Shown here in pieces: positions 7,993-50,086 of a stretch of DNA of 64,000 nucleotides. The stretch's first letter is position 1. Every line of letters starts with the position of its first letter. The translations under genes were made by a program, and so were the position numbers. The DNA is from Maylandia zebra (lineage: Eukaryota; Chordata; Actinopteri; Cichliformes; Cichlidae), in NCBI RefSeq assembly GCF_041146795.1, contig NC_135175.1:31313075-31377074 (forward strand), read 5' to 3'. The notes below the pieces were generated by a model. That model searched no databases. It was not told the origin of the DNA and saw nothing but the letters and a program-made list of their open reading frames with translations.

Positions 7993-8029
<37 letters not shown>

Positions 8030-10048
8030 AATACAGAGACAATATAAATAAATTATACGAAGGGGATAAATAGAATAAATAGGAATAAAAATAAAAATAC
8101 AAGTGAATTGCACATTTCAAGTATTGAGTCTATTGCAAATTAAAGCAGCCTAAAGTTTTAAAACTTCGGTTGAACAAACATGCTCTTTCCAGTTCTGTAA
8201 CTTTCTGAAGCTTCTGATTCACATGCATGACTGTGTCTTTGCTGGTAAGTGGAATTAAACCTCAAAAGAAGAAAACAGTAAAAATGAAACTGTTGCGGGC
8301 AAGGTAGACATGCAAGCCGCTCTTCACATTCAGTAAAGATGAAGGCTGCACAGTCTGTCACCTCACCTGAAGCTGTCTGTTAGCTAGATTGTTAGCTGCC
8401 TTTCCTGCCTACAGCTAAGCAGGCCAAAATTGTAAAGAGGTAATATAGCTATTACCTGGAGGACCAGATTTGACATTAATATCATAAAGTTTGTAACTGA
8501 CTTTAACTGATGTTTCTGCTCCTAGGATTGCAAACCAGCGCCATAAAGATAAACCGTGGTGTGTCAACCCAAATTCTAAGTGGCTCAAGGACAAAATACA
8601 GAAGGTAACATGAAGCCAGACTGTAGATCTGTGTCTGAACTACCAAAAAAGTGTAAATTAGTGGTTCACCTTGTCATACCACATTAAATGGCTTGTGATT
8701 TTATTTAATTTCAGATAATTATTTGCGTTGAAATCTGAACCAAAGAAAGTCAATTCAGACCAAGGATAGAGGATTAAGGAAAAATGGAACTTTGTCTTAA
8801 TCTACTCATCTACACATGTAATTTATGTACATTATTTATTAGCTCTATTAGTAATGTAAATTAGTACAGCCCTGAAATAGCTGAATATTTCTTTTTTTCT
8901 GCCGCATTTGCACATGTTATCTAGTTATCGCATAGTTTCAGATGCTAGTCACACTGCAGATTTACATTTTACCACTATACGGTTTGTGGTTTGCCTTTTT
9001 ATCTGAGATAGTGTCATCAGTGTACTGCTGGAGAGTGGGCACTCATCAGTTCTTTCACCAAAGTTCAGCTGCTTGTAACAAGCTCGTGTCCTTTCAATCT
9101 AGAGTTCCCATTTAGCTCATCGACTGTTTTTATGATGTCCTTTAGTTGTTTTGAATATCTTAAACCTGCACTCTTTCTAATGGCCAGCAGGGGGCGACCC
9201 ATCTGATTGCAAAAAGACTTCTTGTTGTATAAAAGCTGCTCGTTTCAGGTCATATTGGATAGAACAACAAGCTCAATTTGTAAATTGTGATAATGCTGAG
9301 AATTAGAAAGATGGATATTCAAAATATGCTCTTTGGTTAACAGCTTTACTCATCATGTCCCATTCCAAAACACCACAATCACCATCGTAGCGATGGATCT
9401 AAAACCAATGGGAGACATCACTGTCACAGCTACCATTTAATAATTTAATTCTCCTGTATTTAAACAATATATCAATAAAATTTGGAAGTAGATCATCTCC
9501 TTTTTACATGATCAGTGCGATGTGAAAGATTACTAAATGTAATCTTTAACCTCTAGTCTACATCTGTTGTCAACCACTCAGGTTAAAGGTGTAGAGGAGG
9601 TGTTTGTGAAGACCTCTCATTAAAAGTTGTCAAAGATGAAAATCACAGGGGAAAGTACTTTTAGGAAAGTACTTTCAGATTCGGCCTCAAAAGCTGGTCA
9701 ACCAATAATGTCATCACTTTAATTAGAGATGCCTGTTGAAAGGAAAGCCCCATAAAGTGAAATGTAGGAGGTTCAAACCACTTGTTAATAAGCGCAGCAC
9801 CCACATGTTATCAGGTATGAAGCTGGTGGAAGGTGGTGAGGTGGTGAGTCCCCCCTGCTTGATCCGTGGAAAGCTGGTTTCATGGACCGAGGGAACATTT
9901 ATTAATAAAACGTATTAAAATACTTCTCTGTATGTAATAAACTCGTCTAACTGCATCTTTGCTTTTCCTACATTTGCAGGGAGAATTAAACTGCCCTCAA
10001 GATCTGTCATTATTAAATGAAGTTCCCAACAAGCCAACAACAGCATGA
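5624..10048 (+). CDS. Six-cysteine CC chemokine, CCL27/CCL28-like (gene 1)
   Basis: The gene encodes a secreted chemokine, expected to signal through a G-protein-coupled chemokine receptor. Four exons join in frame: 5624-5708, 7273-7387, 8526-8604 and 9980-10048 (phases 1, 2, 0; all GT-AG), giving 115 residues. Residues 1 to about 28 are a signal peptide with a hydrophobic core (WIFLLSLSVVMFF). The adjacent C37-C38 define the CC class; C61 and C79 are canonical Cys3 and Cys4, and C79 precedes the VNPNSKWLKDKI helix. Two extra cysteines, C52 (eight residues separate it from C61) and C98, match the extra disulfide of CCL28 in relative order. It heads a cluster of three derived paralogues. The family is certain; the CCL27/28 assignment is an inference from cysteine pattern only, and other six-cysteine fish CC chemokines are possible. 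An AATAAA follows at 10193-10198. Confidence 0.88.
7859..8135 (-). repeat. Dispersed fish repeat (LINE/SINE tail) in intron 2 of gene 1
   Basis: A (TAGAT)n run leads into AACTTTATTAATCCCTCGGG and then TA/CA microsatellites. The same sequence recurs at about 63590-63812, so it is a dispersed repeat. Its internal CA and TA runs explain the tyrosine/isoleucine-rich open frame on the minus strand. Confidence 0.65.
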
Positions 10049-10192
10049 AGTAAAACAGCAACGTTTTATCCTGAAATACTATTTATTTCTTTTACATACA
10101 TATCTATTTAAAATACAAGATATTTTTTTTAAGTAACTGGAAAAATGATCATTGTGGTGGCATTATTTTATTAAGTTGTTGTACATTTCAAC

Positions 10193-11113: not shown

Positions 11114-11311
11114 AGGAAGGAAGCTACCCACCACACAACTCTGTGGGAGTTTATTTTTGTGTAAATACATCACCAAACAGCCCCTAATTCAGTGACAAGC
11201 TACAGTATATAAGATGAGCTGCTGTCACACTTTGACAAGTTCATCAGCTGGTAACAAACCTGTTCACCGCTCAGATCCAGACTCAGATTTGGTGCCTTTC
11301 AGCGTCTCAAC
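11114..11311 (+). promoter_or_regulatory. Promoter and 5'UTR of chemokine gene 2 (TATA 11206-11213)
   Basis: TATATAAG sits 106 bp before the ATG. The flanking block, including CACCAAACAGCCCCTAATTC upstream and TTTGACAAGTTCATCAGCTG downstream, is almost identical before genes 3 and 4. The three genes therefore share one duplicated promoter and probably similar expression. Confidence 0.75.
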
Positions 11312-12601
11312 ATGTGTTCGAGTCTCTCCACCAGCCGCCTGATTCTTCTGATCTCCCTGAGTGTGGTGATGCTCATCTCTGTATCAGGTACAGTTTTTAT
11401 TTCTGGAGTTTGTTTTGTTGTCATAGTTCTGTAACAACAGCTAAAAGTCTGTTTCTCAACATGGTTATAAATCTATCTGGTCTTAATGCAACTTACTACC
11501 TGATAACTAATAGTGTCTAAAGAGACTAAAGCTAGCACAGACTGTAGCAGAGCAGGTGTTTCTGGACAAATTATAACTGACTAAAAGAGGGTTTGGGGTT
11601 TTTTTTGGGAGCCACTCTGGACCAATTTAAAACACGACTTCTAGATATGTACCACTGATAAAAGACAGGTGTATTTTTTTCAGTAATGTGATTTTTCATA
11701 TTACACATAATAACTGGATCAGTAAATTATTTATACAACATCTGAAAGCTCAGTTTATTTCATTCTCCATGATATCTGAAAGGCCCTGAAAAATAATGAC
11801 AATGTGTGTGATGATGTGCTGCAGGGGCTGACCACGTGGTAAATGACTGCTATAAAGATCATTCTAAGCAAAATGCAAGAACCACGTTTACACCTCAATG
11901 GGCAAAAAACATCAACAGCTGCGTTGAAGACAACAGACCAGGCTGCCTTCATGGCTATGAGTAAGTAGAACTTCTTCTAAATTCACTTAAACCAAATAAA
12001 ATGTAGAAATTAATTCTTGATTAAAAATCTACAAACACAACAATGAAAATGAGATTTGCACTGAAACCTTGATGTAGCAGATAAATGTTCCCCTCTCTAA
12101 CATACAGCACTACTGTTTGCTCTGTGATTGTTTCTAATGTGGTGACGTTGGGGAATCTGTGAGTTTGTGCTTATGAGCTTGGAGGAAACCTGAGCTGTTC
12201 TCTCACAGCATAATGCAAAATGGACCCTGCACATGTTCAGTTAACAATAAAGTGAAAATGTCCAATCCTTTGATTTGTCTTCCTGTCTCTAAACTTCTTT
12301 CTTTATTCTTTTATTTTTTCTTCCAGAGTCAAAACAAGTGGAAATAGAACATTTTTCCTCAGACCAAACACCGAGTGGCTTAAAAGGAAAATAAATGAGG
12401 TGAGAAACAAATTATTTATAAAAATGTGGACACAAAGTTTAGAAAAACCAGCAGTGACTTTCTATCAAAAGTGTAATATAGGTTATAAAAAGACACTGTG
12501 TATATCTGTCTAATGGTGCTTCTCGTTTTTCTTTTCATGTCACCTTCTCTCTTTCACCACCACAGGGAACTCTGCTGTGTCCTCCAGCGATTTCTAAATG
12601 A
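11312..12601 (+). CDS. Chemokine-like secreted protein, 4 cysteines (gene 2)
   Basis: Exons 11312-11387, 11825-11960, 12327-12399 and 12566-12601 join in frame (phases 1, 2, 0) to give 106 residues. A 26-residue signal peptide (RLILLISLSVVMLI core) precedes the mature domain. Only C34 remains of the CC pair, followed by Y35. C58 corresponds to the extra Cys of gene 1, C66 to canonical Cys3 and C100 to the second extra Cys. Canonical Cys4 is replaced by Phe81 in TFFLRPNTEWLKRK, aligned with PWCVNPNSKWLKDK in gene 1. The C-terminal helix and WLK motif persist, so the fold is probably kept by C34-C66 and C58-C100. One entire canonical bridge is absent. It is not an XC chemokine, which keeps Cys2 and Cys4. 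Receptor binding is unknown. All splice sites are canonical and a poly(A) signal follows, so the gene looks functional. Confidence 0.85.
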
Positions 12602-12830
12602 AGATGATGGAAACGATGAAGCAAAGTAAAGCAGCAAATGGAAACAGTTCTGCAGATTTATGATTTCACACTTTTACAGAAATATTTGTTAAGAAATGTT
12701 GATTATTGTTTGTAAATTATAGATAGAAATTAAAAACCACTTTTGTTTTCATATTTAGTAAAAATGTCATTAAATATGAATGTTCGATTTTTTCTTATTC
12801 TATCTTCAAGCTGTGAACAAAGACAAAATC

Positions 12831-12836
12831 AATAAA
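12831..12836 (+). terminator. Poly(A) signal of chemokine gene 2
   Basis: AATAAA within ATCAATAAAAGCC, 230 bp after the stop. The same 13-base context is found after genes 3 and 4 at similar distances. Confidence 0.65.
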
Positions 12837-12976
12837 AGCCTTTGAAACTGCATTCTTTAATGGTCTGTGTGATCATTTACTAATTACTGTAAAAAAAAAA
12901 GTAACTAATGAGATATCACAGCTGTGAGGTGCTGCATGTGAGATGCGAATAAAATGTAGATGTATATAAAATTAAA

Positions 12977-15735
12977 ATGAACACATCAGATACCCCCATG
13001 ACTCTAGTGGAGGAGAATGCACATTTCCCGTTTATGTTAAATTTCATTAGTTTTATTTCATTAATGCTGGGTTGCAGGAGCAGCAGACTGAGCACAGACA
13101 CTCATGCCTCCCTCTCCTCAAGAAACACGCACCATTATCATTCCTTACGCTGCACATGATATTCCCACTCCTCACGCTTTAGCACCTCTCACTACAGATG
13201 CCAGTGGAAAAGGTGAGAAAGAGATATAAGAGCAGATGAAACAGGAAGTCAACACACTCAGACATCCTCGCCTTGTTTTAAAACATAAAAACACATTAGG
13301 AAAAGACACACCAGTACCTTCTTGATTACAGCTCCTCCTGCAGCCTCCTCACTCTGTCCACTAAATACATATTAGAGGTTGCAACATCTTTCAACTCAGA
13401 CTGGGAACAGGCACGAATCAGAGAAAGGAGAACGGTGACTTGTCTTTTATTGCTATAGTGATTGTGGATTCTTGTAGTTACACTTCCTTTGTTCATCTTT
13501 AATTCCATATTACTGTTGTGTTGTGTAGGGTTCTATCTTTATGTCTTGTCTTTGTTTTCTCCTATTTTTACAAATAAATCTGGGAAATAAAATTCTCAAT
13601 CTCTTCAAAGTGGTAGAGCAGCTCACTCAGAGGGTGTACTCGTTAGAAGCCCAAAATACTGGAGCTCTACTCTGAGCACCTTCTGAGGCTGAGCCCAGAA
13701 ACCCTTTAGAGAAAGTTTATTTCCACTGCTTCATTCATTGATATTTTTGTCTGTATCCAACAACATGTGGCCATTTGTGAAGGTGGTGACTACAATCACC
13801 GACCCTGTGTTGGATACATAAACCCACCGTTTATGTATCCAGCTATGAATGCAAGAGGTAAGAGGTCATGTTGATGTTGGCAGCACATGACCAATCAGAG
13901 ACAGGGATACGTAGATAACCTGGACAAGAAAACTAAACATATTTTGCTGAAAATACTTTAGGACCCAGGGGATTAAAGGGAGAGAGTGTAAAGCAGTGGG
14001 TGCTCACTGAAAACAGTAACATTTTAGCTAAAGTGTGAAGATTATAAATGAAATTAAAGGTTATAAAAAGACACTTTGTATATCTGTCCAATGGTGCTTC
14101 TTATTTTTCTTTTCATGTCATCTTCTCTCTAAGCAACACAGCTACTGGAAACAGTTCTGCTTATTTATTAGTTCAAATATTTTACAGAAATATTTGTTAT
14201 GAACTGTAGATAGTTTTCATGCAAATTATTGATAGAGCTTTAAAAACAGTTTTGTAGTCATATTTATCTTTTAGTTGTTTTCTAAATGATATTTCTCATG
14301 TTTGATAAGATTCATTACAAAACTTGAAACATTCCAGTGCTTTCCACTGTTTGCTCTGATGTAGCTGAGGTGTTAACATAGTTTAACAAACACAATGAAG
14401 TTAATGAGTAAATAACGATCATACTTTCAACACACAATGACTTCAGGGTGGCTGTAGCTCAGGCAATAATGTGGGTCACCTACTAAACAGAAGGTTGGTG
14501 GTTCAATCCCAGTCTGTACACCAACCCAATGTTGCTCTTGGATAAATCCATCAGAGTATGAATGTGTGTGTAAAGGTAGGAATGGAAGCATTTAACAACA
14601 TCTTAGAAAAAGCGATTAGGTGAATGAAAAAGTTGTGTAAAGGTATACAAAAGAGTAGAAAAGTGCAACATAAGAACAAGTCCATATACTCAAAATTACT
14701 TTTACATTAAATAATTTTCTTTAAAATATAATAAAAATATATAAAAACTATGAATAAAACTGAATTCAATTGAACTGAATTGAAGATGTATTCTATTCTA
14801 TTCTATTCTAAGATGTGATGAATCCAGGGAACCTCCAGGGGGAGCAATATTTACAGAATTAATTTACAGGACACTGAATAACTGGTTTTGGTTTAGAATT
14901 AATTCACATATCCACATAACACTGCATTCTAAAATGCGTGTGCACGTTTAGTTTACACTGTTATGTATGATTAATCTTTGTTTTCTGAGTTACTTTCGTT
15001 GCAGCTGCTTCAGTCCCTTGATTAAGGAGCCAATAGGTGGGAAAGGGGCAGAGCGAGTTTCAGTTAGGTCAGTTTTTAGTTATCAGTATGTTTTGTTTTT
15101 TCTTTTAACTTTGAGCAGAGTTCTGTTATTTTGACCTCTTTTATGGGCCCAAGATTTTGATTCTTTTTGCCTGATTTGACCAATTATGTTTTGGGGTCAC
15201 ATAAAAATTCCATTTTATCCTTTTTTTGGACTTTAACCTGTGTCTAAGTTTCCTTCGCTGCTCGGTACATCACACAGCCAAACAACTATAAGTGAAATGA
15301 ACACGGTCCACAGGTGCCAGGCAGAAAAGGAATCATCAAATGTGACGCAACAGCTACATGAACTCTACATGTCTGTGACCAAGATGAACTTAACATGCCA
15401 GCTGACCCTGAACAGTTGGTGGCACACACAAGTGTAATATTTTCCACAAAGAAGTCCCTAATACAGCAACATAAAAGGAGTTTGTTTGACAGTCTTCGTT
15501 GGATTGACTTTTGAACGACAGGAACTCACTGTATATTTATACTAGTCTAGAATGACTTGTGGAGCCATCTAACCAAGTGTGGGGTCAAAGGTTCAAACAA
15601 TTGTATATAAACACAAATTCTTTGAGTGTGTAATCAATTTGCTATAAGATGAAATTAACTAGGAAAATAAGGAACAACCCAGAAGGAAACCAGTAGATGA
15701 CATCACTGTCATGGCTACCTCTGTCTTACTGTCTA
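12977..15735. repeat. Intergenic part of the duplicated chemokine unit (copy B)
   Basis: Several blocks recur about 7.2-8 kb downstream: 13066-13120 at about 21106-21160, 14280-14510 at about 21520-21730, and 15287-15735 at about 22595-23110. A fragment at 14058-14150 resembles the sequence before exon 4 of genes 2-4 without a usable exon, and another lies at about 20610-20700. No functional gene is seen here. The region marks the tandem duplication that produced genes 3 and 4. Confidence 0.6.
14446..14690 (+). mobile_element. tRNA-derived SINE
   Basis: GTGGCTGTAGCTCAGG (A-box region) and GGTTCAATCCC (B box, about 14500-14510) form an internal polymerase III promoter. The tail contains the fish-SINE phrase about 'aaaagtgcaacataagaac'. 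It is conserved at the same place in the next duplicate (21691-22010), so it predates the duplication. It is not a tRNA gene, because no acceptor stem is formed. Confidence 0.6.
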
Positions 15736-15738
15736 TGG

Positions 15739-16261
15739 CAGGCCACTTCTAGCACCGTCATCTCATTGGAGGGCCACTTTAGTGTTCAAGTAGTACAAAA
15801 AAAAACAAGAAAAGAAAAGAAAACACCCACTAATATTTCCAAAAATGTAATGTTTTGCTTGTTTTAACACGAACATGGTGTAGAGTCGAGTCTTAACAGC
15901 TTACTTAGAACTGGGCTCATCAGGCACTCTTTTTGGCTGCAGTGGCCATTATCATAATATATACATGCTTCCAGCTCCCGTTTGTGGTCGCTAGCACCTC
16001 GTACTTTTCGACTTTGCTTTTTCTCCCACCATCGCGCTCGCACACGAACAGCGGGAGGGGCGGTCCCACATGTTCTCCCTGCAGCACGGACTACACCGCC
16101 CATGCGGCTACAGTCGTAAAGGGCCATGCCTGTAACACTCTGCTCCTATTGCCTTCATATGAAATCATTTTTCAAATAATATTTTTAAAAAACATTTCTT
16201 CACATCAATATGCGGGTCACAAGTAGAGGTGATGTGGGCCGCAAATGGCCCGCGGGCCGTG
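15739..16261. mobile_element. hAT-like non-autonomous element in unit B
   Basis: The left end begins CAGGCCACTTCTAG and the right end has GGCCCGCGGGCCGTG, typical of Charlie-type hAT ends. It interrupts sequence that is continuous in unit C (about 23105-23120). The flanks GTCTATGG and GTCTGTGC look like a decayed 8-bp target-site duplication. No transposase frame is visible. Confidence 0.5.
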
Positions 16262-16945
16262 GTCTGTGCTCTTCCACCTGCTTTTTTAAACATATTTTTT
16301 CCCCTGAGCTCAAACACTTTATTAATAAAGTTTGGAAATAGATCATCACGTACCTTGTGTTAAAGATCACTAAATGGTAATCTTAAGCCTCTAATTTAAG
16401 GTCTGTACCTGTTGACAATTACTAAGTGTAGAAGCAGTTTCTGTGAAGCCCACTCATTAAACGCTATTAAAGACAAAGTCACAGGGAAAGTCCTCTTAAA
16501 TGTGGCCACAGAAGCTGATCACCCAGTAATGTCACTGTTTTATTCTGAGTTGTCTTTGAAAGGAAACCACCATGAATTCAGATGTGGGAGGTACAAACCA
16601 CTAATAAAATCAACACCCACAGATTAACAGGAACGAAACTGGTGGAAGATCACGTCACAGAGAGTCCCCGTGCTCAGCCAATGGAAAGCCTTTCCACACA
16701 CCGAGGGAACATTTGTAATAAAACATGTTAAAATACTTCTCTGTATGTAATAAAATAACTAACTTTACCTTTCCTGCTCTCTCTTTTCTTTTCTCTACAT
16801 TTCAGAGAGGATTAAACTAAAGATTTGTCATTAATAAACTAAGTTGTGTGCAAGTTTCCAACAAGTCAACAAAAGAGTGAAACAAAAACATTCATTCCCC
16901 ATCTGTTTATTAGAGATGCGACGGACTACTCAACAATCCATTTAA
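16262..16945 (+). pseudogene. Relic of gene-1-type chemokine exon 4 and flank (unit B)
   Basis: From about 16310 the sequence matches intron 3 and exon 4 of gene 1: the phrases TTATTAATAAAGTTTGGAA, AAAATACTTCTCTGTATGTAATAAA, and then an acceptor-like CATTTCAG followed by GAGGATTAAACTAAAGATTTGTCATTA in place of gene 1's coding start. In-frame stops and indels destroy the exon (about 16806-16860), and no upstream exons 1-3 are present. It is a broken duplicate of gene 1. Confidence 0.65.
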
Positions 16946-17930
16946 ACCAGAGCTTCCCAAAGTGTGGGGCCTGCCCCCTGTGGGGGAGGGGGGGGGGGGG
17001 GGGGGGGCGCAGAGCCATTGCAGGGGGGGCACGGTATGAAAAGGAAAAAAAAATGAAACGCTTGGACACTGCTAGTGATCGATGTAGCGATTCTGTGCTG
17101 TTGAGGGGAGCACGGCATGGCATGGGGGAGATGACAATGATCTACAGCCGATCGGGACACAGAACACAATGCGCTTTAAAAAAAAAATAAATCATGCAAG
17201 GCGAGGCTTCAAACGGTGAACCGCGTTATAGCGAGGGACCACTGTAATTGTGAAGATAAGTTCCAACATACCCTTCGTAAATACTAACATATAGAGACCC
17301 TTGCCCACAATCATTCATGTATTTTTTTATGTCCTGTGGCTTTTTTTCACGGTTTGTTGACATGCTGTGTAGGTGTGTACTTATATAGACATAATGGGGA
17401 AACATCTGGCTTTGACTATTGTTCACCTGTAGTTTGAATGCTGGACATTGGCCTGTTAAATCATAAGAACAGTCACTATACAGAGATGTGCTTCTGAATG
17501 TGGACGATGTGTCTTCTGCATGCAGTAATGCAGTTCTGCTTATGTTGAGTGATGTAAACAAACAATCGATCTACACACTTCGAACATCAAAATTGATCAT
17601 TTGATTTTTTATGACACAGCAGTGGTGAGTGTTCACACCCTCTGCTCTTTGTAACCTAAAGTAATCTTTCCGTTTTCGAGTTTTGGTCATGATTTTTGAG
17701 TCCACCTTCGCAGTAGCAGTTGACTGCAAAATAAAGCAACCAGAACCGTACAACCTTACATCTGGTCTTAAAACAGGAAGTTAGCATTTTCTCGTGCACA
17801 GGGTCTATAACGTGGCGCACAGCGTGACGTGAAAAAAGGCACATACCTTTGACATTGCGTGACGAACTCTGTATGAGGTGTGAAATAAACCCCAATGGAG
17901 TTTGAAAACAAAATATGTGTGTGCGTGTTT
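16946..17930. repeat. Composite DNA-transposon repeat with pogo-like end
   Basis: This segment is absent from unit C. It holds a run of 20 G (16988-17007), a CTTCCCAAAGTGTGGGGCC start, and at 17218-17246 GAACCGCGTTATAGCGAGGG and the following bases, the inverted terminal repeat typical of pogo/Tigger-type elements. The part from about 17070 to 17860 is repeated at about 39330-40066. No intact transposase is present. Confidence 0.55.
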
Positions 17931-18119
17931 GAAGGATGAATAATATTATTTATGAATTGGATAAATAATATATGTTGTCTGACAGCAGAACAACACTTGT
18001 TTCACAGCAGCGTACTGCTGCTCCTACTGCTACTGCTGTTAGTAATGTTAATATTACTACTATAAAATGTCAATACTTGTGGGATGACTGTTCATATATT
18101 TCCAGTTTATAGTACACAT

Positions 18120-18389
18120 TATCAGGTTTAAACCCATTACAGACACATTGAGCTGTACAACAAACCTCAACACGAGAAAGGAAGCTGCACGCCACAGCAG
18201 TCTGTGGTTGTCGTGTTTCCATCAGTGTTTATTTTTGTGTAAATACATCACCAAACAGCCCCTAATTCAGTCACAAGCTACAGTATATAAGATGAGCCGC
18301 TGTCACACTTTGACAAGTTCATCAGCTGGTAACAAACCTGTTCACAGCTCAGATCCAGACTCAGATTTGGTGCCTTTCAGCGTCTCAAC
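18120..18389 (+). promoter_or_regulatory. Promoter and 5'UTR of chemokine gene 3 (TATA 18284-18291)
   Basis: TATATAAG lies 106 bp before the ATG at 18390. The block is nearly identical to the promoters of genes 2 and 4, including the CAGTCTGTGGTTGTCGTG segment shared with gene 4 only. Confidence 0.75.
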
Positions 18390-19631
18390 ATGTGTTCGAG
18401 TCTCTCCACCAGCCGCCTGATTCTTCTGATCTCCCTGAGTGTGATGATGCTCATCTCTGTATCAGGTACACTTTTTATTTCTGGAGTTTGCTCTGTTGTG
18501 AAAGTTCAGTGACAACAGCTAAAAGCCTGTTTTTCAACATGGTTATGAATCTATCTGACCTTAATGTAACTTTCTAACTGACAACTAACTGTGCGAAAAG
18601 AGACTAAAGCTAGCACAGACTGTAACAGAGCAGCTGTTTCTGGACAAATTACTGTCAACTGCATTTAATAAAATCTATATGGTTGATTAAATCCAGTTGT
18701 ATTGTTGTCAGCTATGTAATTTTTTGAAATTAACATAATAACTGCATCAGTAAATTATTTATACAACATCTGAGAGTTGAGATTGTTTCAGTCTCCATGA
18801 TATCTTAAAGGGTTTGAAAAATAATGACAATGTGTGTGATGATGTGCTGCAGGGGCTGACTTCGTGGGGAAAACCAGCTATAAAACACATTCTAACAGTG
18901 GTGTAATAAACATGTCTGCACCTAAATGGGCAAAAAACATCATCAGCTGCTTTGAACAAAACAGACCAGATGGCTATGTGTAAGTAGAACTTCTTCTAAA
19001 TACAATTTAACCAAATAAAATGTAGAAATGAATTCTTGATTAAAAATCCACAAACACAACAATGAAAATGAGATTTGCACTGAAACCTTGATGTAGCAGA
19101 TAAATGTTCCCCTCTCTAACATACAGCACTACTGTTTGCTCTGTGATTGTTTCTAATGTGGTGACGTTGGGGAATCTGTGAGTTTGTGCTTATGAGCTTG
19201 GAGGAAACCTGAGCTGTTCTCTCACAGCATAATGCAAAATGGACCCTGCACATGTTCAGTTAACAATAAAGTGAAAATGTCCAATCCTTTAATTTGTCTT
19301 CTTCGCTCTAAACTTCTTTCTTTATTCTTCTGTTTTTTTCTTCCAGGGTCAAAACACGTGCAGGAAGAACATTTTTCCTCAGACCAAACACCGAGTGGCT
19401 TAAAAGGAAAATAAATGAGGTGAGAAACAAAATATTTATAAAAAAAAATGTCAACACAAAGTTTAGAAAAACCAACAGTGACTTTCTATCAAAAGTGTGA
19501 AGATTATAATATAGGTAATAAAACGACACTGTGTGTATCTGTCTAATGGTGCTTCTTCTTTTCATGTCACCTTCTCTCTTTCACCTCCACAGGGAACTCT
19601 GCTGTGTCCTCCAGTGATTTCTAAATCATGA
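18390..19631 (+). CDS. Chemokine-like secreted protein with only 2 mature cysteines (gene 3)
   Basis: Exons 18390-18465, 18853-18979, 19347-19419 and 19593-19631 join in frame to give 104 residues. The signal peptide (residues 1-26) is almost identical to genes 2 and 4. In the mature part the single N-terminal Cys is Ser34 (TSYKTHS). A 9-base deletion removes canonical Cys3, leaving NRPDGYV, and Cys4 is Phe78. Only C58 and C97 remain, the pair equivalent to the extra, non-canonical bridge of gene 1. The WLKRKI helix and the exon 4 tail LLCPP are intact, and the stop moved two codons beyond that of gene 2 (the third codon now reads TCA before TGA). Splice sites, TATA box and poly(A) signal are all intact. 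It may be a functional divergent ligand or antagonist, or a gene starting to decay. Confidence 0.82.
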
Positions 19632-19798
19632 TGATGGAAACGATGAAACAGAAATATTTGTTAAGAAATTTTGATTATTTTTGTAAATTGTTTCTGGAGC
19701 TTAAAAATAGTCCTGTAGTAATATTTATTAAAATGTCATGAAATATGAATGTTTGAAGTTTACTTATTCTGTCTTCAATCTGAGAAGAAAGATAAATC

Positions 19799-19804
19799 AA
19801 TAAA
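19799..19804 (+). terminator. Poly(A) signal of chemokine gene 3
   Basis: AATAAA in AAATCAATAAAAGCC, 167 bp after the stop codon, homologous to those after genes 2 and 4. Confidence 0.65.
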
Positions 19805-21690
19805 AGCCTTTAAGTTCAGATTTATAATGGTGTGTGTGATTATTTAGTACTTGCTGTAACAACATATTCTCATGATGATGTCATGATCTCAGGACACCAG
19901 GAAGCACAGACGGCAGAAATCACTTGGAAAAGTTCTTCACGAATACATAAACTATCAACACAAGGACACATAAATGGATGCTCTACAAACTAGAAACACA
20001 AAGATTCTAACATAGGAGACACATTAGAGACTACAGCTTGCCTGTTTATGTAATTAGACTTAGACATTAGACTTGGACTGCAAATGACTGGCTCCACTCC
20101 TCACACCTTGGAGCCTCCCACTACAGAAGAAAAAGAGGAGATAACAGGATGTTAACACACATCTTTGAAACATTAGTTTTAATGTTTTGTCAGTTAAATG
20201 TAAAAAAGAATAATGTGATGTCAGACCTTTTTTAGTCACAGGCACAGAAATAGTGAACTGTAGAAAGTCTGATCAGCTTAAATAACTGAAGCTGTTGATC
20301 TTTAGTCCTCCCACTATAGTTTGTGTATTCCAGCTGTGCCACAGTGTTTAGAAGATGTGACTCTCTGTCCTCTTACATGCCTCGTAGATTTCTTAATTCA
20401 CACGATTTCATAGAGGCAGCTGCTTTTGAAGAATCATCAGTCCTGCGACTGTGTGTGGCTCAGTGTTGTCCAACAAACTGAAGTTGAAGGCCTGATTTTC
20501 TCTTTAAAATCCTTTTAAATCATCTGTAGAGAAAATTTGTGAAAGCAGCGGGTGTTCACTGAAAACCAGCATTAACATTTTAGCTAAAGTGTAGATTATA
20601 AATGAATTAAAAGGTTATAAAAAGACACTGTGTATATCTGTCCAGTGGTGTTTGTTATGTATATCTTTTCATGTCACCTTATCTCTAAGCAACACAATTA
20701 CTGGAAACAGTTCTGTTTATTTATTAATTCACACTTTTACAGAAATATTTGTCAGGAAATTTTGATTTTTATGTAAATAGAGCTTTATAAATAGTTTTGT
20801 GGTCATATTTTATAAAAAGCTATTGAATATAAATGTTTGAAGTTTTCTTATTCTGCCTTCAAGCTGAGAGCAAAGAGAAATCAATTAAAGCCTTAAAAAT
20901 CTGATTTTTGCTAATGCATTGTGTGTGATTATTTAATATTTACTCTAAGTATTATAACGGACAACAAAATACTCATTGTCATGACAACATCATGATCACG
21001 GGACACCAGGAGGCAGTATATGGCAGAAGTAAAACTGAACATTCAAAAATCACTTGGAAAGTTATTCACAGATACGTAATACGTGTTTTATTCATACTTT
21101 CATTAATGTTGGGTTGCAGGAGCAGCAGACTGAGCACAGACACTCATACCTCCCTCTCCTCAGCCTCCTCCAGCTCCTTTAGGGAAGCACTGAGGCATTC
21201 CCAAGTCTGCCAAGAAACACATGTCTTTCTCATTCCTTAAACTGCACATGATTAACTCCACTGCTCCCATCATAATCCCTCTCACTGCAGAATGCTGGAG
21301 AGGAAGTGAGGATATAACAGATATAACAGGACATGAGACATCTTTGTCTGTTAACGTCCTGTTATATCCAACCCATGTCCAAACATGATTTGATGCTCGT
21401 ACATTGCACTAAGTACAGGGTACTTGCATCGTATTTACCAGTCATGTTATAAAATGATACCAAGATTTCAAATAATCGTGCAAACACTCTATAAGAACAA
21501 AATCTTTTAGTGTATTTCTAAATGATATTTCTCATGTTTGATAAGGTTCATTACAAAACTTGAAACATTCCAGTGCTTTCCACTGTTTGCTCTGATATAG
21601 CTGAGGTGTTAACATAGTTTATCAAAGACATGGATTAATTAAAGGTTAATGAGTAAATAAAGATCAAACTTTCAACACATAAGTATTTTG

Positions 21691-22010
21691 GGGTGGCTGT
21701 AGCTCAGGCGGTTGTGTGGGTCACCTACTAAATCCCAGTCTGCTACAGTCTGTATACCAACCCAGTGCTGCTCTCCAATGCATCCATCAGAGTGTCTGTG
21801 AATGTTAGACAGGAAACATTTAACAGCATATCGTTAGCTTCATAGCATAATTGCCTAAGTCATTTGACTAAGTCAATGACTTAGGCACTTATGCTATGAA
21901 GCTAACGATATTAGAAAAACTGCTTTTGTGATTGGGTGAATGAACAAGTTGTGTAAAGGGCTTTGAGTACTCAGAGTAGAAAAGCGCACCATAAGAACCA
22001 GTCCATTTAC
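21691..22010 (+). mobile_element. tRNA-derived SINE, B box partly deleted
   Basis: This is the unit C counterpart of the SINE at 14446-14690. It begins GTGGCTGTAGCTCAGG, but the GGTTCAATCCC B box is shortened to AAATCCC. A perfect-looking hairpin (21829-21910) has been inserted into its body. Confidence 0.6.
21829..21910. repeat. 82-bp foldback: 35-bp inverted arms with one mismatch
   Basis: The left arm (21829-21863, starting TATCGTTAGCTTCATAGC) and right arm (21876-21910, ending GCTATGAAGCTAACGATA) are reverse complements with one mismatch. A 12-base spacer (TTGACTAAGTCA) separates them. The paralogous SINE in unit B reads straight from 'aacatct' into 'tagaaaaa', so the hairpin is an insertion specific to unit C. 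Confidence 0.8.
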
Positions 22011-23383
22011 CATATTGTTTCCTCTTGAAAAAGGTCAAAGTCCATATACTCAAAATTCATTTTACATTAGTGATCGACTTACATACAAGACTGTGCCACA
22101 CTAGTGGCCCAGATTATACAGAGTGTCTGGGGGAGGAACATATATTTGTTGACGTTTTCTTGTATTCTTGTAAGGTCTTTTCTTTAACATAGAATAAAAA
22201 AATATAAATTATGAATAAAACTGAATTTAATTCAATTGAATTGAAGATCTGATGAATCCAGGTATTCTGAAACTCACTTTGCATGGACAGAAAGAACCTC
22301 CAAGGGGAGGAATATTTCCAAGAAACTCCATCATAATCCACTTTTTTAGTTCTAGCTAACACTAGAACTATTAATACTGCAAGTCTTTTCAAACAAAAGA
22401 TATTTTAGACACATGATGAAGCAGCTCATAATCGAGTCAGGGTTCAAGTTCAAATATTTTATTCGAGCTAAAATATAGTTGCAAAAGCCTAAACAAGACA
22501 GCAGCAGAGTAGAAAAGTTATCCAGGATTCTCCCTACTAAAATCTAAATTACAGACCTTGTGCTGCAATCCTTCTTCCCACCATTAAGCATTGAACAGTC
22601 AAACAACTACAAGTGAAATGAACACGGTCCACAGGTGCCAGGCAGAAAAGGAATCATCAAATGTGACCCAACAACTAATCAAGGTACATGAACTCTACAT
22701 GTCTGCAACCAAGATGAAATTAACATGCCAGTTGACCCTGAACAGTTGGTGGCATACGCACAAGTGTAATATTTTCCACAAAGAAGTCCCTATGACACCA
22801 ACATAAAGGGGATTTGTTTGACAGTCCTCGTTGGATTGACCTTACTCAGAACGACAGGAACTCATGTATATTTATACTACACTAGAATGACTTGTGGAGC
22901 CATTTATAAGAAAATGTGGGGTCAAAGTTTCAAAATAAAGACAAATTCTTTGACTGTGTCACTAATTTGTTATACGATGAAATTAATTAGGATGATAAGG
23001 AACAACCCAGAAACCACCAGGGCTTAAGCCTGCCAAGTGCTTCATAATGAGACCTGAAACCAGTGGATGACATCACGGTCATGGCTACCACTATCTTTTA
23101 ATACTGTCTATGGCCCTCCCACCTGCTTTTTTAAACATACCTTTTCCCCAGTGGCAGCTGAACTTCATTCGACCATGGCCTGCAATGACTTTGCCAAATT
23201 CTTCACTGACAAAATCCAAAAGATTAGACAAGCAATTGGTACATCAACAGCAGATTCAGGATATATACTGTGTCCACTGAAAAACTGTTTAAACATGATG
23301 AAACAGTTTCACCCTATTAACAGCAAAGACCTGGAGGACATCTTAGGTCAACTGAACTCCTCCTCTTGCTGTTTAGATGTCCT

Positions 23384-24034
23384 TGTCATGGTCCTGGGTT
23401 GTGTGACCCAGTGTGTTATGCTTAACCTATTTTGATGTTTATTGTTTGCTTAGGTTCTTTAAGGTAGTCCAGCCCTTTTTGTAATTATGTTACCCTTGCA
23501 TTACGTCTCCCTTGCCCTTCGTGTGTTTATGTCTGTGTGTCTTGTACTGTCAAGTTCATGCTGTCAGTTATGTCACCTCCCCCTGTACTACGTCTCCCCG
23601 GTTCATGTCTCATGTTTCCTGTTTTACTTTGAAGGCCTGCATTCACTGTCTGTGTATTCAGCTCACTCCTCCTGTCCTGTCGTTAAGTTCATGTGTGTCA
23701 GCTGCGTTCCCATGTGTGGCCACTTCCCCTGATCATCCCTCATGTGTATTTAGTCTCTGTGTTTCTTACAGTCTGTGTCGCGTCGTCTGTGTTATCTCCC
23801 CTACCCCTTGTCATAGTTCCCCAGCCTTAACTAGTCCTAGTTTGTACTTTGTTTAGCCATAGTTTTCCCAGTCTATGTTCAGGTTTTCCCTCAGTTGCTT
23901 TGCTGCCTTGTTCCTTAAGTTTTCGGCCCTAAATAAAGGCTCGCCTTCTGTTAAGTCCGGTTTTGTGTCCTCACCTCTGTTTGCTCTTGGGTCCTCCACT
24001 CACTCCACACGGTCTGCCCCGGCGGTCCGTGACA
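23384..24034 (+). mobile_element. Solo LTR with perfect 5-bp duplication GTCCT
   Basis: It starts TGTCATGGTCC and ends CCGTGACA, 651 bp, flanked by GTCCT at 23379-23383 and 24035-24039. It carries an AATAAA (about 23931). Removing it restores the L2 frame across the junction (…CCLDV then LPTSSF…), which confirms both borders. Confidence 0.85.
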
Positions 24035-24282
24035 GTCCTGCCAACAAGTTCTTTCAAAAAGGTCTCAAAGACTTTGGAGTCAGACCTGTTACAGATCGTC
24101 AACTTTTCTTTAATATCAGGTGTGTTTCCAGAACCACTAAAAACTAATTAAACCTGTACTGAAAAAGGAAAACCTTGACAAGACACAAATGAACAACTAC
24201 AGGCCGATCTCAAATCTCCCATTTTTAAGTAAGATCATTGAAAAAGCAGTTTCTCAAAAGCTCAATCCGATCGTTCAGTCTG

Positions 24283-25110
24283 ACGTCACTAGCCGTGTCT
24301 GGGCCTAAACTCCGCTGCAGGTCCATATATCAAATGATCGCTGTGGCATTACTGAGAGTTCAAAAACTGTCTTAAGTCTTTCATCTTTAATAAAATGATC
24401 AGCGTTCTGCTCTACCACGTGTAACAACTGAGTTTAACATCCAGGCATCCATGAAAATGGAATTTATGACATTTAACGGAGTTAGAAGTTAGCAGGAAGT
24501 TAGCTCGCTAGCTTCCACCTAAATACAATATAGCATATCCTGACTGCGGGGTTTTGGAAACAAATTAAAATGTACAGCTCTGTTATCACTTCCAACATAA
24601 ATTAAGACAGAAAACTAAACAGCAGTGACGTTTGTAGGGTTACTGAAGTTGGGCTAGCTGGTATATAATGATGTGCTACGTGACTGCTAGCGACACAGCT
24701 ATTTTAGCATAATATAAACAAGCTAACTTTTTTTCCACTTGATAAAAGTTAACGTGAGTGTTGTCGGTGGTCAGGAACAAATGTAATTGCATGGCAGGAT
24801 GCTGTAAAAGGACCAAATTTCAGCCAGGAGAACAACTGAGATAATCCATCCACAATACGAGGTTAGTCATTCATATACTGCTGCATGGGCTGTGCTGTAG
24901 TTACATCGTAAGGTTTTAAAAACTGAGCTTAAATAAATGATTAGTGGTATTAAAAGCCGAGGGAGGTCAACGGTGATCACTGACTTTTTTAGGAGCTTTT
25001 TGAGATTAAATAGAAGAAAATACAAAGCATTAAACATGTTAACAACACAAAAGCCATATTAAACGCAGACTACTTTAGGCCCGGAAGTAGGATTCGTCAC
25101 GTCATCACTT
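24283..25110. mobile_element. DNA transposon fragment inside the L2 relic
   Basis: This AT-rich non-coding insert separates two adjacent parts of the L2 reverse transcriptase. Its ends have related motifs (CTGGGCCTAAACTCCG at left, TTTAGGCCCGGAAGTAG at right, roughly inverted). Exact borders and family could not be fixed by eye. Confidence 0.4.
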
Positions 25111-25676
25111 AATAATCGGATTACTTTTAATTCTAACTGCTATGACGCCTTCCAGTCAGGTTTTAGACAGAACTACAGCACTGAAACTGCTCTGACCAAA
25201 GTGTTTAATGACTTATGTCTGAATACAGACAGTGGAAAAATGTCAGTTTTAGTTTTACTGGATCTCAGTGCAGCATTTGATACAGTTGACCACAACATAT
25301 TACTCAAACGAGTGAAGAACTGGGCAGGTCTTTCAGGAACTGTACTAAACTGGTTCAAAACCTATTTAGAAAACAGGAAATACTTTGTATCAATAGGTAA
25401 CTTCACATCTGAGCAGACAAGTATCACATGTAGAGTTCCCCAAGGTTCCATCTTGGGACCCGTTCTGTTTAACATTTACATGCTCCCACTGGCACAGATT
25501 ATAAAGCACAACAAAATAAACTATCATAGCTATGCAGATGACACACAAACATACAGTGGCTTGCAAAAGTATTTCGGCCCCCTTGAACTTTCCCAAATTT
25601 TGTCACATTACAGCCACAAACATGAATCAATTTTATTGGAATTCCACGTGAAAGACCAATACAAGGTGGTGTACAC

Positions 25677-26066
25677 TGTCATGGTCCTGGGTGATCCAGT
25701 GCTTTACTATTATTATTTTCTAGTTTATTCTGAATTTGTATTAGTTCTTTGGGTTTGGTTGTCGTGTTTATTATCCCTACCTGTGGTTCTCTGTGAATCT
25801 TCTGTGTTACTCAACATTAAACTGTATTTCTCCGCGTCTCTCTGCCCAGCATTCTTCATCTGCCATCTCTGTATATCTCCCGCTGTCCTCATGTTTTTCA
25901 GGTTTGTTTGTTAGTTTTCCCAGTTTAGGTTTAAGTTCAGTTCTGCCCTCACCTTTGTTATTTTCACTGTAAATAAATCTCCACTCGCATCTCCACTGCC
26001 ATCTGCAACTTGGCAGCATCAAAGCAGGAGTCATTCCACCACACGACTGCTGACCCAGCCGTGACA
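25677..26066 (+). mobile_element. Solo LTR nested in the Tc1-like element
   Basis: It starts TGTCATGGTCCTGGGT and ends CCGTGACA, with TACAC (25672-25676) and TACAT (26067-26071) as a 4-of-5 target-site duplication. Its ends match those of the LTR at 23384-24034, so the two are related, but this one is shorter (390 bp). Confidence 0.75.
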
Positions 26067-26337
26067 TACATGTGAGAAGTGAAACAAAAATCATACATGA
26101 TTTCAAACATTTTTTACTGCAATAACATAATAATAACTACATAATAACTGCAAAGTGCGGTGTGCGTAATTATTCGGCCCCTTTGGTCTGAGTGCAGTCA
26201 GTTGCCCATAGACATTGCCTGATGAGTGCTAATGACTAAATAGAGTGCACCTGTGTGTAATCTAATGTCAGTACAAATAAGGATGCTCTGTGACGGCTTC
26301 AGAGGTTGTCTAAGAGAATATTGGGAACAACAACACC

Positions 26338-27197
26338 ATGAAGTCCAAAGAACACACCAGACAGGTCAGGGATAAAGTTATTGAGATATTTAGACTACAA
26401 AAAGATTTACCAAGCCTTGAACATCCCACCGAGCACTGTTCAAGCAATCATTCAGAAATGGAAAGAGTATGGCACAACTGTAAACCTACCAAGACAAGGC
26501 CATCCACCTAAACTCACAGGCCAAACAAGGAGAGCGCTGATCAGAAACGCAGCCAAGAGGCCCATGGTGACCCTGGACGAGCTGCAGAGATCTACAGCTC
26601 AGGTGGGGGAATCTGTCCATAGGACAACTATTAGTCGTGCACTGCACAAAGTTGGCCTTTATGGAAGAGTGGCAAGAAGAAAGCCATTGTTAACAGAAAA
26701 CCAGAAGAAGTCCCGTTTGCAGTTTGCCACAAGCCATGTGGGGGACACAGCAAACATGTGGAAGAAGGTGCTCTGGTCAGATGAGACCAAAATGGAACTT
26801 TTGCCAAAATGCAAAACGCTATGTGTGGCGGAAAACTAACACTGCACATCACTCTGAACACACCATCCCCACTGTCAAATATAGTGGTGGCATCATCACG
26901 CTCTGGGGGTGCTTCTCTTCAGCAGGGACAGGGAAGCTGGTCAGAGTTGCTGGGAAGATGGATGGAGCCAAATACAGGACAATCTTGGAAGAAAACCTCT
27001 TGGAGTCTGCAAAAGACTTGAGACTGGGGCGGAGGTTCACCTTCCAGCAGGACAATGACCTTAAACATAAAGCCAGGGCAACAATGGAGTGGTTTAAAAC
27101 CAAACATATCCATGTGTTAGAATGGCCCAGTCAAAGTCCAGATCTGAATCCAATCGAGAATCTGCAAAGAAGAATGGGCAAGAATTTCAGTCTCTAG
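26338..27197 (+). pseudogene. Tc1-like transposase, frameshifted
   Basis: The start MKSKEHTRQVRDKVIE reads to about 26390, where a small deletion shifts the frame into YKKIYQALNIP. The paired helix-turn-helix region and an AT-hook-like RQGHPPK follow. The catalytic triad residues are visible: D in WSDETK, D in QQDNDLKHKA and E in SPDLNPIENL, a DD34E-type core. A second frameshift near 26800 separates the first D from the rest, and the C-terminus after IENL is missing. A working protein would be about 340 residues; this copy cannot make it. Confidence 0.85.
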
Positions 27198-27410
27198 ATG
27201 TGCAAAGCTGGTAGAAACATACCCTAAAAGACTGGCAACTTTAATTGTAGCAAAAGGTGGTTCTACAAAGTATTGACTCAGGGGGCTGAATAATTACGCA
27301 CACCCCACTTTTCAGTTATTTATTTGTAAAACACTTTTGGAGTCGTATGATTTTCGTTCCACTTCTCACGTGTAAACCACTTTTGTGCTATATAAATGAA
27401 CTTGCCTTGC

Positions 27411-28160
27411 CATGAGTTCAAACACTTTATTAATAAAGTTTGGAAATAAAACAGCACGCACTTTGTACATGATCAGTGTGGCAGTGAAGATTACTAAATG
27501 GTAATCTTAAGTGTGTTATTTAAGGTCTGTACCTGTTGACAATTACTAAGTGTAGAAACAGTTTCTGTGAAGCCCACTCATTAAACGCTATTAAAGACAA
27601 AGTCACAGGGAAAGTCCTCTTAAATGTGGCCACAGAAGCTGGTCACCCAGTAATGTCACTGTTTTATTCTGAGAATTTAGATGTGGGCGGTGCAAACCAC
27701 TAATAAAATCGACACCCACAGGTCAACAGGAACGAAACTGGTGGAAGATCACGTCACAGAGAGTCCCCGTGCTCAGCCAATGGAAATCCTTTCCACACAC
27801 CGAGGGAACATTTATCAATAAAACATATTCAAATACTTCTCTGTATGTAATAAAATAACTAACTTTACCTTTCCTGTCACTATTAAACAAAGTAATGCAA
27901 GTTTCCAACAAGTCAACAAAAGAGTGAAACAAAAACATTCATTCAAACAGATGCATTTAATTCTCCATGTTTTTATTAGAGATGTGCAACAATCCATTTG
28001 AACACTGCTGCCCTCAGCTCTGGAAATATCGCTTGCAATAATACACAAAACTGTGTTATTAGAAAACTGTGAAAAATAAAAATAATAATTAGTAAAATGT
28101 TTCCCTTCAGTGTTAAATGGATTGATATTACAGCAGCTTATGTTTAAGGTTAAACTCATA
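27411..28160 (+). pseudogene. Relic of gene-1-type exon 4 flank (unit C)
   Basis: It is homologous to the relic at 16310-16945: TTATTAATAAAGTTTGGAA, the ATACTTCTCTGTATGTAATA phrase, then TTTCCAACAAGTCAACAAAA. The region corresponding to the coding part of exon 4 is mostly deleted (about 27878-27900). It shows that the unit containing gene 4 also once carried a gene-1-type copy. Confidence 0.6.
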
Positions 28161-28164
28161 CACT

Positions 28165-28242
28165 TCAATTCAATTCAATTTTATTTATATAGCGCCAAAT
28201 CACAACAAAAGTCGCCTCAAGGCGCTTCATAGATACTTGTGT
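28165..28242 (-). repeat. Short dispersed repeat
   Basis: TTCAATTCAATTCAATTTTATTTATATAGCGCC with the following CAAGGCGCTTCATAG is a very common fish repeat tail. Only the terminal ~75 bp are here. Confidence 0.5.
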
Positions 28243-28539
28243 TTCATGTCCAACATCATATTTAATAAATCATTTGTTTGTAATGGCTGTCGTCTGAGGT
28301 TCTACGATCTCTAAAAGGGAAAGATTAAAAAACAAACAGTTGTTCATGAGCTCAGAAATACGAAACCTACATCTTGATTTTATTTATTGCTATTGGATAA
28401 ATAATATATGTTGTCTGACAGCAGAACAACACTTGTTTGACAGCAGCGTACTGCTGCTCCTACTGCTACTGCTGTTAATACTACTACTATAAAATGTCAA
28501 TACTTGTGGGATGACTGTTCATATATTTCCAGTTTGTAG

Positions 28540-28816
28540 TACATGTTATCAGGTTTAAACCCATTACAGACACATTAAGCTGTACAACAAACCTCAACAT
28601 GAGAAAGGAAGCTGCTCACCACAGCAGTCTGTGGTTGTCGTGTTTCCATCAGTGTTTATTTTTGTGTAAATACATCACCAAACAGCCCCTAATTCAGTGA
28701 CAAGCTACAGTATATAAGATGAGCTGCTGTCACACTTTGACAAGTTCATCAGCTGGTAACAAACCTGTTCACCGCTCAGATCCAGACTCAGATTTGGTGC
28801 CTTTCAGCGTCTCAAC
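28540..28816 (+). promoter_or_regulatory. Promoter and 5'UTR of chemokine gene 4 (TATA 28711-28718)
   Basis: TATATAAG is 106 bp upstream of the ATG at 28817, in a block almost identical to that of genes 2 and 3. Confidence 0.75.
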
Positions 28817-30060
28817 ATGTGTTCGAGTCTCTCCACCAGCCGCCTGATTCTTCTGATCTCCCTGAGTGTGGTGATGCTCATCTCTGTATCAGGTACAGGT
28901 TTTATTTCTCTGTTGCGAAATAGAATAGAATAGAATAGAATGAATAGAATGCCTTTATTGTCACTATACAGTTGTACAATGAGATACAAAGCAGAAAGCT
29001 CAGTAACAGCAGCTAAAAATCTGTTTCTTAACACGGTTACAAATCTATCTGGTCTTGATGTAACTTTCTTACAAACGGTAACAGAGCAGCTGTTTCTGGA
29101 CAAAATACAGTCAATTACATTTAATAAAATCTATATGGTTGATTAAAGCCAGTTGTAGTTTTTTGTCAGTTTTGTGATTTTTGGTATTACACATAATAAC
29201 TTGATCAGTAAATTATTTATACAACATCTGAGAGTTGAGATTGTTTCAGTCTCCATGATATCTTAAAGGGTTTGAAAAATAATGACAATGTGTGTGATGA
29301 TGTGCTGCAGGGGCTCAACACGTGGGAAATGCCTGCTATAAAACATATTCTAACAGTGGTGTAATAAACATGTCTACACCTAAATGGGCAAAAAACATCA
29401 TCAGCTGCGTTGAAGACGACAGACATGGCTGCCTTCATGGCTATGAGTAAGTAGAACTTCTAAATAAATTTAAACCAAATAAAATGTAGAAATTAATTCT
29501 TGATTAAAAATCCACAAACACAACAATGAAAATGAGATTTGCACTGAAACCTTGATGTAGCAGATAAATGTTCCCCTCTCTAACATACAGCACTACTGTT
29601 TGCTCTGTGATTGTTTCTAATGTGGTGACGTTGGGGAATCTGTGAGTTTGTGCTTATGAGCTTGGAGGAAACCTGAGCTGTTCTCTCACAGCATAATGCA
29701 AAATGGACCCTGCACATGTTCAGTTAACAATAAAGTGAAAATGTCGAATCCTTTGATTTATTTCCCTCTCATTATAAACTTCTTTTTTATTCCAGGGTCA
29801 AAACAAGCAGAGGAAGAGCATTGTTCCTCAGACCAAACACCGAGTGGCTTAAAAGGAAAATAAATGAGGTGAGAAACAAATTATTTATAAAAATGTGGAC
29901 ACAAAGTTTAGAAAAACCAGCAGTGACTTTCTGGCAAATATGTGAAGATTATAATATAGGTAATAAAACGACACTGTGTATATCTGTCTAATGGTGCTTC
30001 ACCTTCTCTCTTTCACCACCACAGGGAACTCTGCTGTGTCCTCCAGGAATTTCTAAATGA
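28817..30060 (+). CDS. Chemokine-like secreted protein, 4 cysteines (gene 4)
   Basis: Exons 28817-28892, 29311-29446, 29796-29868 and 30025-30060 join in frame (phases 1, 2, 0) to 106 residues, the same length as gene 2. The signal peptide is identical to gene 2. The mature protein keeps C34 (NACYKT), C58, C66 and C100 and lacks Cys2 (Tyr35) and Cys4 (Phe81 in ALFLRPNTEW). Between C34 and C58 it matches gene 3 (SNSGVINMS.PKWAKNII) rather than gene 2, while around C66 (HGCLHGYE) it matches gene 2. This mosaic suggests unequal exchange or deletion in gene 3. Intron 1 holds an AATAGAAT-type repeat (28916-28985). It is probably functional: canonical splice sites, TATA box and poly(A) signal are all present. 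Confidence 0.85.
28916..28985 (-). repeat. AATAGAAT-type SINE tail in intron 1 of gene 4
   Basis: Repeated AATAGAAT units lead into GCCTTTATTGTCACTATACA, also present at about 33943-34010 inside a hAT element. It is absent from the same intron of genes 2 and 3, so it inserted after duplication. Confidence 0.6.
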
Positions 30061-49836: not shown

Positions 49837-50086
49837 ACTGGTTGCTGGGCTGAACTTCTACATAATACAGATTTACATGGGATCTTATTTTCTGTCGTTT
49901 TACTGAGTCAGTTTTGTCCTTTTTTCTCTGTCCTGGTTTTGCTCGTCTGTAAATAATTGAAACTCAGTCAAATAGTTCATTGTTCTCCAGCAAAACGTTT
50001 TGGAACCTCATGTTTAACCTTTAAACTCTGACATGTTTTAGCACACAAGGCTTCATCGGGGAGTTCACTCATGATTGGACCATGAG

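Follow-up and report, generated by a model that had tools for sequence, protein, structure and literature searches.

We found four chemokine-type genes, each with four exons, on the forward (+) strand of a 64,000-base stretch of contig NC_135175.1 from the cichlid Maylandia zebra (referred to below as the window). Gene 1 (5624..8738; exons 5624-5708, 7273-7387, 8526-8604, and 8715-8738) codes for a six-cysteine CC chemokine of 100 amino acids and is located upstream of, and outside, the span 11312..30060 that an earlier sequence-only reading of this DNA had given for the group. It is followed by gene 2 (11312..12601; exons 11312-11387, 11825-11960, 12327-12399, and 12566-12601; 106 amino acids), gene 3 (18390..19631; exons 18390-18465, 18853-18979, 19347-19419, and 19593-19631; 104 amino acids), and gene 4 (28817..30060; exons 28817-28892, 29311-29446, 29796-29868, and 30025-30060; 106 amino acids). 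The final spliced models are in frame; all 12 introns have GT/AG boundaries, with the same phases (1-2-0) in the four genes. A TATA-like element on the + strand precedes genes 2, 3, and 4 (11204..11212, 18282..18290, and 28709..28717, respectively), identical in motif and in its offset of 108 bases 5' of the ATG, and AATAAA signals are present 3' of these three genes. Gene 1 has a TATAAAA at -106, and no AATAAA was found in the 400 bases 3' of it.

Cysteine sets of the mature proteins

Cysteines define the classes of chemokines, and the mature proteins encoded here have 6, 4, 2, and 4 of them in genes 1 to 4 (C2 of genes 2-4 belongs to the signal peptide and was excluded from these counts). 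The spliced models thus confirm the series of six, four, and two cysteines that the sequence-only reading had described. Gene 1 carries C37, C38, C52, C61, C79, and C97, the same set as reported earlier except for the last extra cysteine, which had been numbered C98. Genes 2 and 4 each have C34, C58, C66, and C100, and gene 3 has only C58 and C97.

The proteins of genes 2, 3, and 4 were aligned with that of gene 1 under 60 parameter sets per gene (180 in total). The position of the fourth canonical cysteine (Cys4) is occupied by Phe in 55/60, 51/60, and 56/60 of these alignments for genes 2, 3, and 4, with a gap in the rest, in agreement with the replacement previously described for genes 2 and 4. 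Cys3 coincides with C66 in 60/60 alignments for both genes 2 and 4 and falls in a gap in 60/60 for gene 3. The 9-base in-frame loss in exon 2 of gene 3, to which the sequence-only reading had attributed its missing Cys3, is real. The extra cysteine pair of gene 1 maps onto the extra pair of genes 2-4 in 173 of the 180 alignments.

Relationship to chemokines

Gene 1 matches the Pfam family IL8 (PF00048) with an E value of 2.3e-7 (31.3 bits, against a cut-off of 21.3), and its best matches in the PDB are CC chemokines (best E, 6.3e-4). Mature gene 1 resembles genes 2, 3, and 4 with z scores of 5.2, 6.6, and 7.3 (2000 shuffles each), and BLASTP between the complete precursors of genes 1 and 4, which include the signal peptide, gave an E value of 4e-13. 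All four genes have the helix tryptophan, seven residues after the Cys4 position, and this residue is invariant with CCL1 too; a tryptophan at this distance is frequent in chemokines, according to passages of PMC2416438. Judging from these similarities, genes 2-4 are very probably chemokines by descent. A profile of genes 2-4 run against the PDB at E up to 10 retrieved eight distinct sequences, 8/8 of them interleukin-8 or a variant (best E, 0.094), which are near copies of one molecule and count as one weak match. A CXC origin of genes 2-4, based on these interleukin-8 matches (E, 0.09 to 0.42), was set aside, gene 1 being the closer relative.

The extra cysteine pair and the known classes

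Human CCL1 (I-309; structures PDB 1el0 and 4oij, of which 1el0 was compared) has an extra cysteine pair that is likewise placed relative to Cys3, Cys4, and the helix. In a five-sequence MAFFT alignment including CCL1, the two extra columns are the only ones with a cysteine in every sequence. Between the first extra cysteine and Cys3, the spacing is 9 residues in gene 1 and 8 in CCL1 as well as in genes 2 and 4. The second follows Cys4 by 18 residues in CCL1 and gene 1, and in genes 2 and 4 C100 follows Phe81 by 19. By this one alignment and these spacings, all four genes carry a CCL1-type extra pair. The additional pair of CCL1 ties the C-terminal helix to the beginning of strand 1. Keizer et al. 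2000 name the additional bond of I-309 in their title.

CCL1 keeps the four canonical cysteines, which are also present in gene 1, whereas genes 2-4 retain no more than two. Two additional cysteines and a fourth exon are also named in the title of a 2007 work on a flounder chemokine, cited in PMC4690017; as far as this title tells, the flounder chemokine shares both features with gene 1 and differs from genes 2-4, in which canonical cysteines are missing. Because of the CCL1-type pair and this flounder chemokine, gene 1 is, from its sequence, of a known kind, and the predicted extra bridge is not new. The sequence-only reading had held that a family with such a surviving bridge could not be placed among the described classes. 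This was too strong for the bridge itself, which sits at the CCL1 positions and has a counterpart in the flounder case, but it is fair for the combination found in genes 2-4, which corresponds to none of the CC, XC, or CX classes.

Adjacent N-terminal cysteines together with Cys3 and Cys4, the mark of the CC class, were found in gene 1 alone; in genes 2 and 4 a single N-terminal cysteine is left and Phe takes the place of Cys4, and gene 3 has none of the canonical four. XC chemokines (XCL1, lymphotactin) have at most one canonical bridge, as do genes 2-4. The XC chemokines are not known to carry a CCL1-type pair. Their class lacks Cys1 and Cys3 and, as stated in passages of PMC2416438, retains Cys2 and Cys4, whereas genes 2 and 4 are without Cys4 and retain Cys3, and in gene 3 all four canonical cysteines are gone. 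The CX class lacks one N-terminal cysteine and keeps both Cys3 and Cys4, and in genes 2-4 Cys4 is Phe or a gap. From the same passages of PMC2416438, zebrafish CX chemokines are similar to genes 2-4 in their tandem CC origin, in the missing N-terminal cysteine, in having extra family-specific cysteines, and in the tryptophan seven residues after the Cys4 position; however, they keep Cys3 and Cys4, and the CX genes on chromosome 24 have five coding exons instead of the four found here. Human B42 and a CXCL17 model, as described in parts of PMC3346806, are proposed chemokine-like folds with non-canonical disulfides that sequence profiles miss, a likeness by description. Threading and mass spectrometry supplied the evidence in that case; for genes 2-4 it comes from their relatedness to a clear chemokine gene. 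Among the matches listed from the open-access literature, no title or abstract start described cysteine losses such as these, which leaves their absence from the literature unproven.

Which N-terminal cysteine was lost

The replacement of Cys2 by Tyr35 that had been claimed for genes 2 and 4 corresponds to the commonest alignment, in which residue 34 lies at Cys1 and residue 35 at Cys2 (46/60, 42/60, and 56/60 protein alignments for genes 2, 3, and 4, or 144/180), but other registers occur and the sequence does not fix it. C34 is found at Cys2 in 12/60 protein sets for gene 2, and the CC of gene 1 is aligned to residues 42-43 in 6/60 sets for gene 3 and 4/60 for gene 4. BLASTP of genes 1 and 4 places residue 34 at Cys1; MAFFT with CCL1, and also the interleukin-8 matches, place C34 at Cys2. 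Alignments of exon 2 DNA (gene 1 against each of the other genes, 72 parameter sets per gene) are likewise divided on which N-terminal cysteine was retained. Residue 34 is at Cys2 in 33/72 sets for gene 2, Cys1 is at residue 34 with Cys2 in a gap in 6/72, 14/72, and 25/72 sets for genes 2, 3, and 4, and both CC codons fall in a gap in 21/72, 21/72, and 38/72. MAFFT on the same DNA produced a 3-base gap spanning the second TGC and the next codon rather than a Cys-to-Tyr change. When the residues C-terminal to the cysteine were scored with BLOSUM62, the Cys1 register was favored against gene 1 for genes 2, 3, and 4, the results against six known chemokines were mixed, and the mean over gene 1 and these six favored Cys2 slightly for genes 2 and 3 and favored Cys1 for gene 4.

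The identity of the N-terminal cysteine kept by genes 2 and 4 is thus uncertain at this level of evidence. Since Cys1 and Cys2 are adjacent, C34 could pair with C66 in either register, and a C34-C66 bridge in genes 2 and 4 is still possible; hence, the biochemical proposal for these two genes survives, but the evolutionary claim of loss by whole bridges does not follow.

Distribution of variation and signs of selection

The N-terminal half of genes 2-4 is longer by about 8 residues in most alignments. The N-terminal cysteine is 32 residues from Cys3 in genes 2 and 4; in gene 1 and in seven known chemokines used for comparison, the distance between Cys2 and Cys3 is 23-25 residues. Most alignments place the extra length in the N-loop, and those few that align the CC of gene 1 to residues 42-43 place it in the N-terminus. 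Genes 2-4 also vary most in the N-terminus, the N-loop, and the 30s region, while strand 3, the helix, and the C-terminal part are nearly unchanged: with region bounds of our own choice, variable residues amount to 17/22 (residues 27-48), 6/16 (49-64), 10/16 (65-80), and 1/26 (81-106). At the DNA level, divergence among the three genes is 0-1% in exon 1, 17-27% in exon 2, 8-11% in exon 3, and 3-6% in exon 4, compared with 12-18% in intron 1, 4-5% in intron 2, 4-6% in intron 3, 3-10% in the 5' flank, and 13-22% in the 3' flank. In each of the three pairs, exon 2 has diverged further than introns 2 and 3 taken together (P of 8e-13, 6e-7, and 4e-5), but its excess over intron 1 is confined to genes 2-3 (P, 0.019), and no pair shows an excess over the 3' flank. 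The idea of exon 2 as a hot spot relative to all neutral sequence was rejected, there being no clear excess over intron 1 or the 3' flank, and for the same reason the quiet introns 2 and 3 may be the unusual part.

Exon 1 (11312-11387, 18390-18465, and 28817-28892) is identical in genes 2 and 4, with one change in gene 3, next to an intron 1 that is 12-18% divergent. This near identity would point either to a signal peptide under strong constraint or to gene conversion in this exon.

In the mature part, a three-copy tree has about 43 non-synonymous and 6 synonymous changes. With a kappa of 2.07, derived from the introns, the ratio of non-synonymous to synonymous rates (dN/dS) is 2.50 (P, 0.011); with kappa set to 1, it is 2.12 (P, 0.032). 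When only exon 2 and the first nine codons of exon 3 are taken, the P values are 0.022 (kappa 2.07) and 0.062 (kappa 1). This test was picked after the data had been seen, and clustered changes or conversion would weaken it. From these values, the N-terminal half is possibly under diversifying selection. The constraint on the reading frame is the firmer result. The introns have 14 insertion or deletion (indel) events in 123 variable columns, 11/14 of them not multiples of three. In the coding sequence, with 53 variable columns, there is a single indel (the 9-base, in-frame one) against 6.03 expected from the introns (P, 0.017), and there are zero frameshifts in genes 2-4 (P, 0.009). In this respect, genes 2-4 look like genes and not like decayed copies, which supports that part of the earlier reading; the bridge-wise loss from which it argued is not established.

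Proposed model and alternatives

On balance, we consider it probable that the locus is a tandem array of four-exon CC chemokine genes of the six-cysteine type, in which genes 2-4 form a derived, fast-evolving branch, probably secreted and stapled by a CCL1-type bridge. The branch has no adjacent CC pair, no Cys4 (Phe in its place), and a longer N-terminal half. Its members would be secreted by way of the nearly invariant signal peptide, and their chemokine core would be stapled by C58-C100 in genes 2 and 4 or by C58-C97 in gene 3; genes 2 and 4, but not gene 3, would have C34-C66 as a second bridge. Such an arrangement would leave the N-terminus and N-loop, the parts of a chemokine that contact the receptor, free to diversify, and changing receptors or microbes may drive this diversification. 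The canonical bridges have been described as crucial to chemokine structure and receptor binding (passages of PMC5666770). More tentatively, and with the balance tilting against it, we propose that the two class-defining bridges are dispensable and that the CCL1-type strand-helix bridge is the sole invariant staple, so that gene 3 would have a working chemokine fold held by no other bridge, and its longer N-terminal half would be under positive selection.

Several observations weigh against the stapled chemokine branch. By profile, genes 2-4 are not chemokines: none of the three matched Pfam IL8 at E up to 1. CCL1 has no significant overall similarity to any of the four genes (z, -0.5 to 1.7) and is absent from the 47 PDB sequences matched by gene 1 at E up to 10, so the link to CCL1 is one of position alone. 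Of the three pairwise dN/dS values, that for genes 2-3 alone reaches nominal significance (P, 0.03; 0.24 and 0.31 for the other pairs). The absence of stops among 53 neutral substitutions has a P of 0.19 and is only mildly informative, and the open frames could in part be luck. Finally, recent gene conversion could be the source of the conserved 3' half, because the adjoining introns are also only 4-6% divergent.

The same losses could be read as decay. The locus, from its sequence, is a birth-and-death array, and the death of genes 2-4 is therefore a real rival: they would be young pseudogenes whose cysteines were lost under relaxed constraint, before any stop or frameshift appeared. Two further copies of the array are already broken, the class-defining cysteines are lost, Pfam fails to recognize the proteins, and stop-free frames alone are not rare after 53 changes. 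However, one in-frame indel and no frameshift were found where about six indels would be expected, dN/dS is above 1 and not near 1, and the TATA-like motif, the splice sites, and the AATAAA are kept in genes 2, 3, and 4. We consider this explanation unlikely. It is also rather improbable, if slightly less so, that genes 2-4 are cationic secreted antimicrobial peptides, no longer receptor ligands, for which the chemokine bridges are dispensable. Their mature net charges are +4, +8, and +6 (genes 2, 3, and 4), with an isoelectric point (pI) of 9.05-10.02; linearized CXCL9 and CCL28 retain antimicrobial activity, according to passages of the review PMC3531597, and a variant of XCL1 without its disulfide still kills Candida, as stated in part of PMC8235156. 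Nevertheless, gene 1 is equally cationic (+8; pI, 9.51), so charge is no distinguishing mark of genes 2-4, and one cysteine pair is retained throughout them. Charges of +4 to +8 fit a heparin-binding ligand and an antimicrobial alike and separate neither.

The order of the losses has an explanation of its own, in which selection acted on cysteines strictly as bridge partners and removed Cys2-Cys4 before Cys1-Cys3, as implied by the earlier claim that exactly one complete bridge is gone and that cysteines were lost in pairs. We regard it as doubtful. In its favor, residue 34 falls at Cys1 in most of the protein alignments and in BLASTP of gene 1 against gene 4, the stretch that follows the cysteine matches gene 1 better in that register in all three genes, and the number of cysteines left is even in every gene. 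Yet with C34 at Cys2, as in the MAFFT alignment with CCL1 and the interleukin-8 matches, the losses would be Cys1 and Cys4, which are not partners, and the DNA alignments are split. The claim of paired loss thus depends on the alignment, and random loss of two and then two cysteines hits two whole bridges with a probability of 3/15 x 2/6 = 0.067; moreover, the pattern in genes 2 and 4 possibly goes back to one shared event, so the two are not necessarily independent.

A natural set of neighboring paralogs with six, four, and two cysteines in one genome would offer a test of which bridges are needed for folding, signaling, and microbe killing. Such genes are missed by the standard Pfam profile.

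Array history and other elements in the window

Similarity between the duplicated units begins 1.4-2.1 kilobases 5' of the ATG (at 9459, 16302, and 27410). A block of the duplication unit lies 5' of genes 2, 3, and 4 at 9459-10055, 16302-16887, and 27410-27876, with 67-86% identity, and at the 5' end genes 3 and 4 are about 95% identical for roughly 540 bases. When gene 2 (11000-13200) was compared with the window by blastn, two copy remnants were found on the + strand, both made of intron 3 and 3' untranslated region without the exon 4 stretch. The first, at 14055..14266, has two aligned segments, one of 76 bases (92%) and one of 136 bases (79%); those of the second, at 20612..20948, are 75 bases (87%) and 259 bases (78%) long.

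Between genes 3 and 4, there are a reverse-transcriptase frame (RVT_1; E, 5e-22) at 25063-25914 and a transposase fragment (DDE_3; E, 1.4e-7) at 26694-27197. Long interspersed nuclear element (LINE)-like reverse-transcriptase frames are located at 36142-37686, which also matches ALKBH8_N, and at 38441-39085. Two copies of a region with C2H2 zinc-finger frames, at 48000-49933 and 60248-62181, lie about 12 kilobases apart and are 96% identical over 1934 bases.

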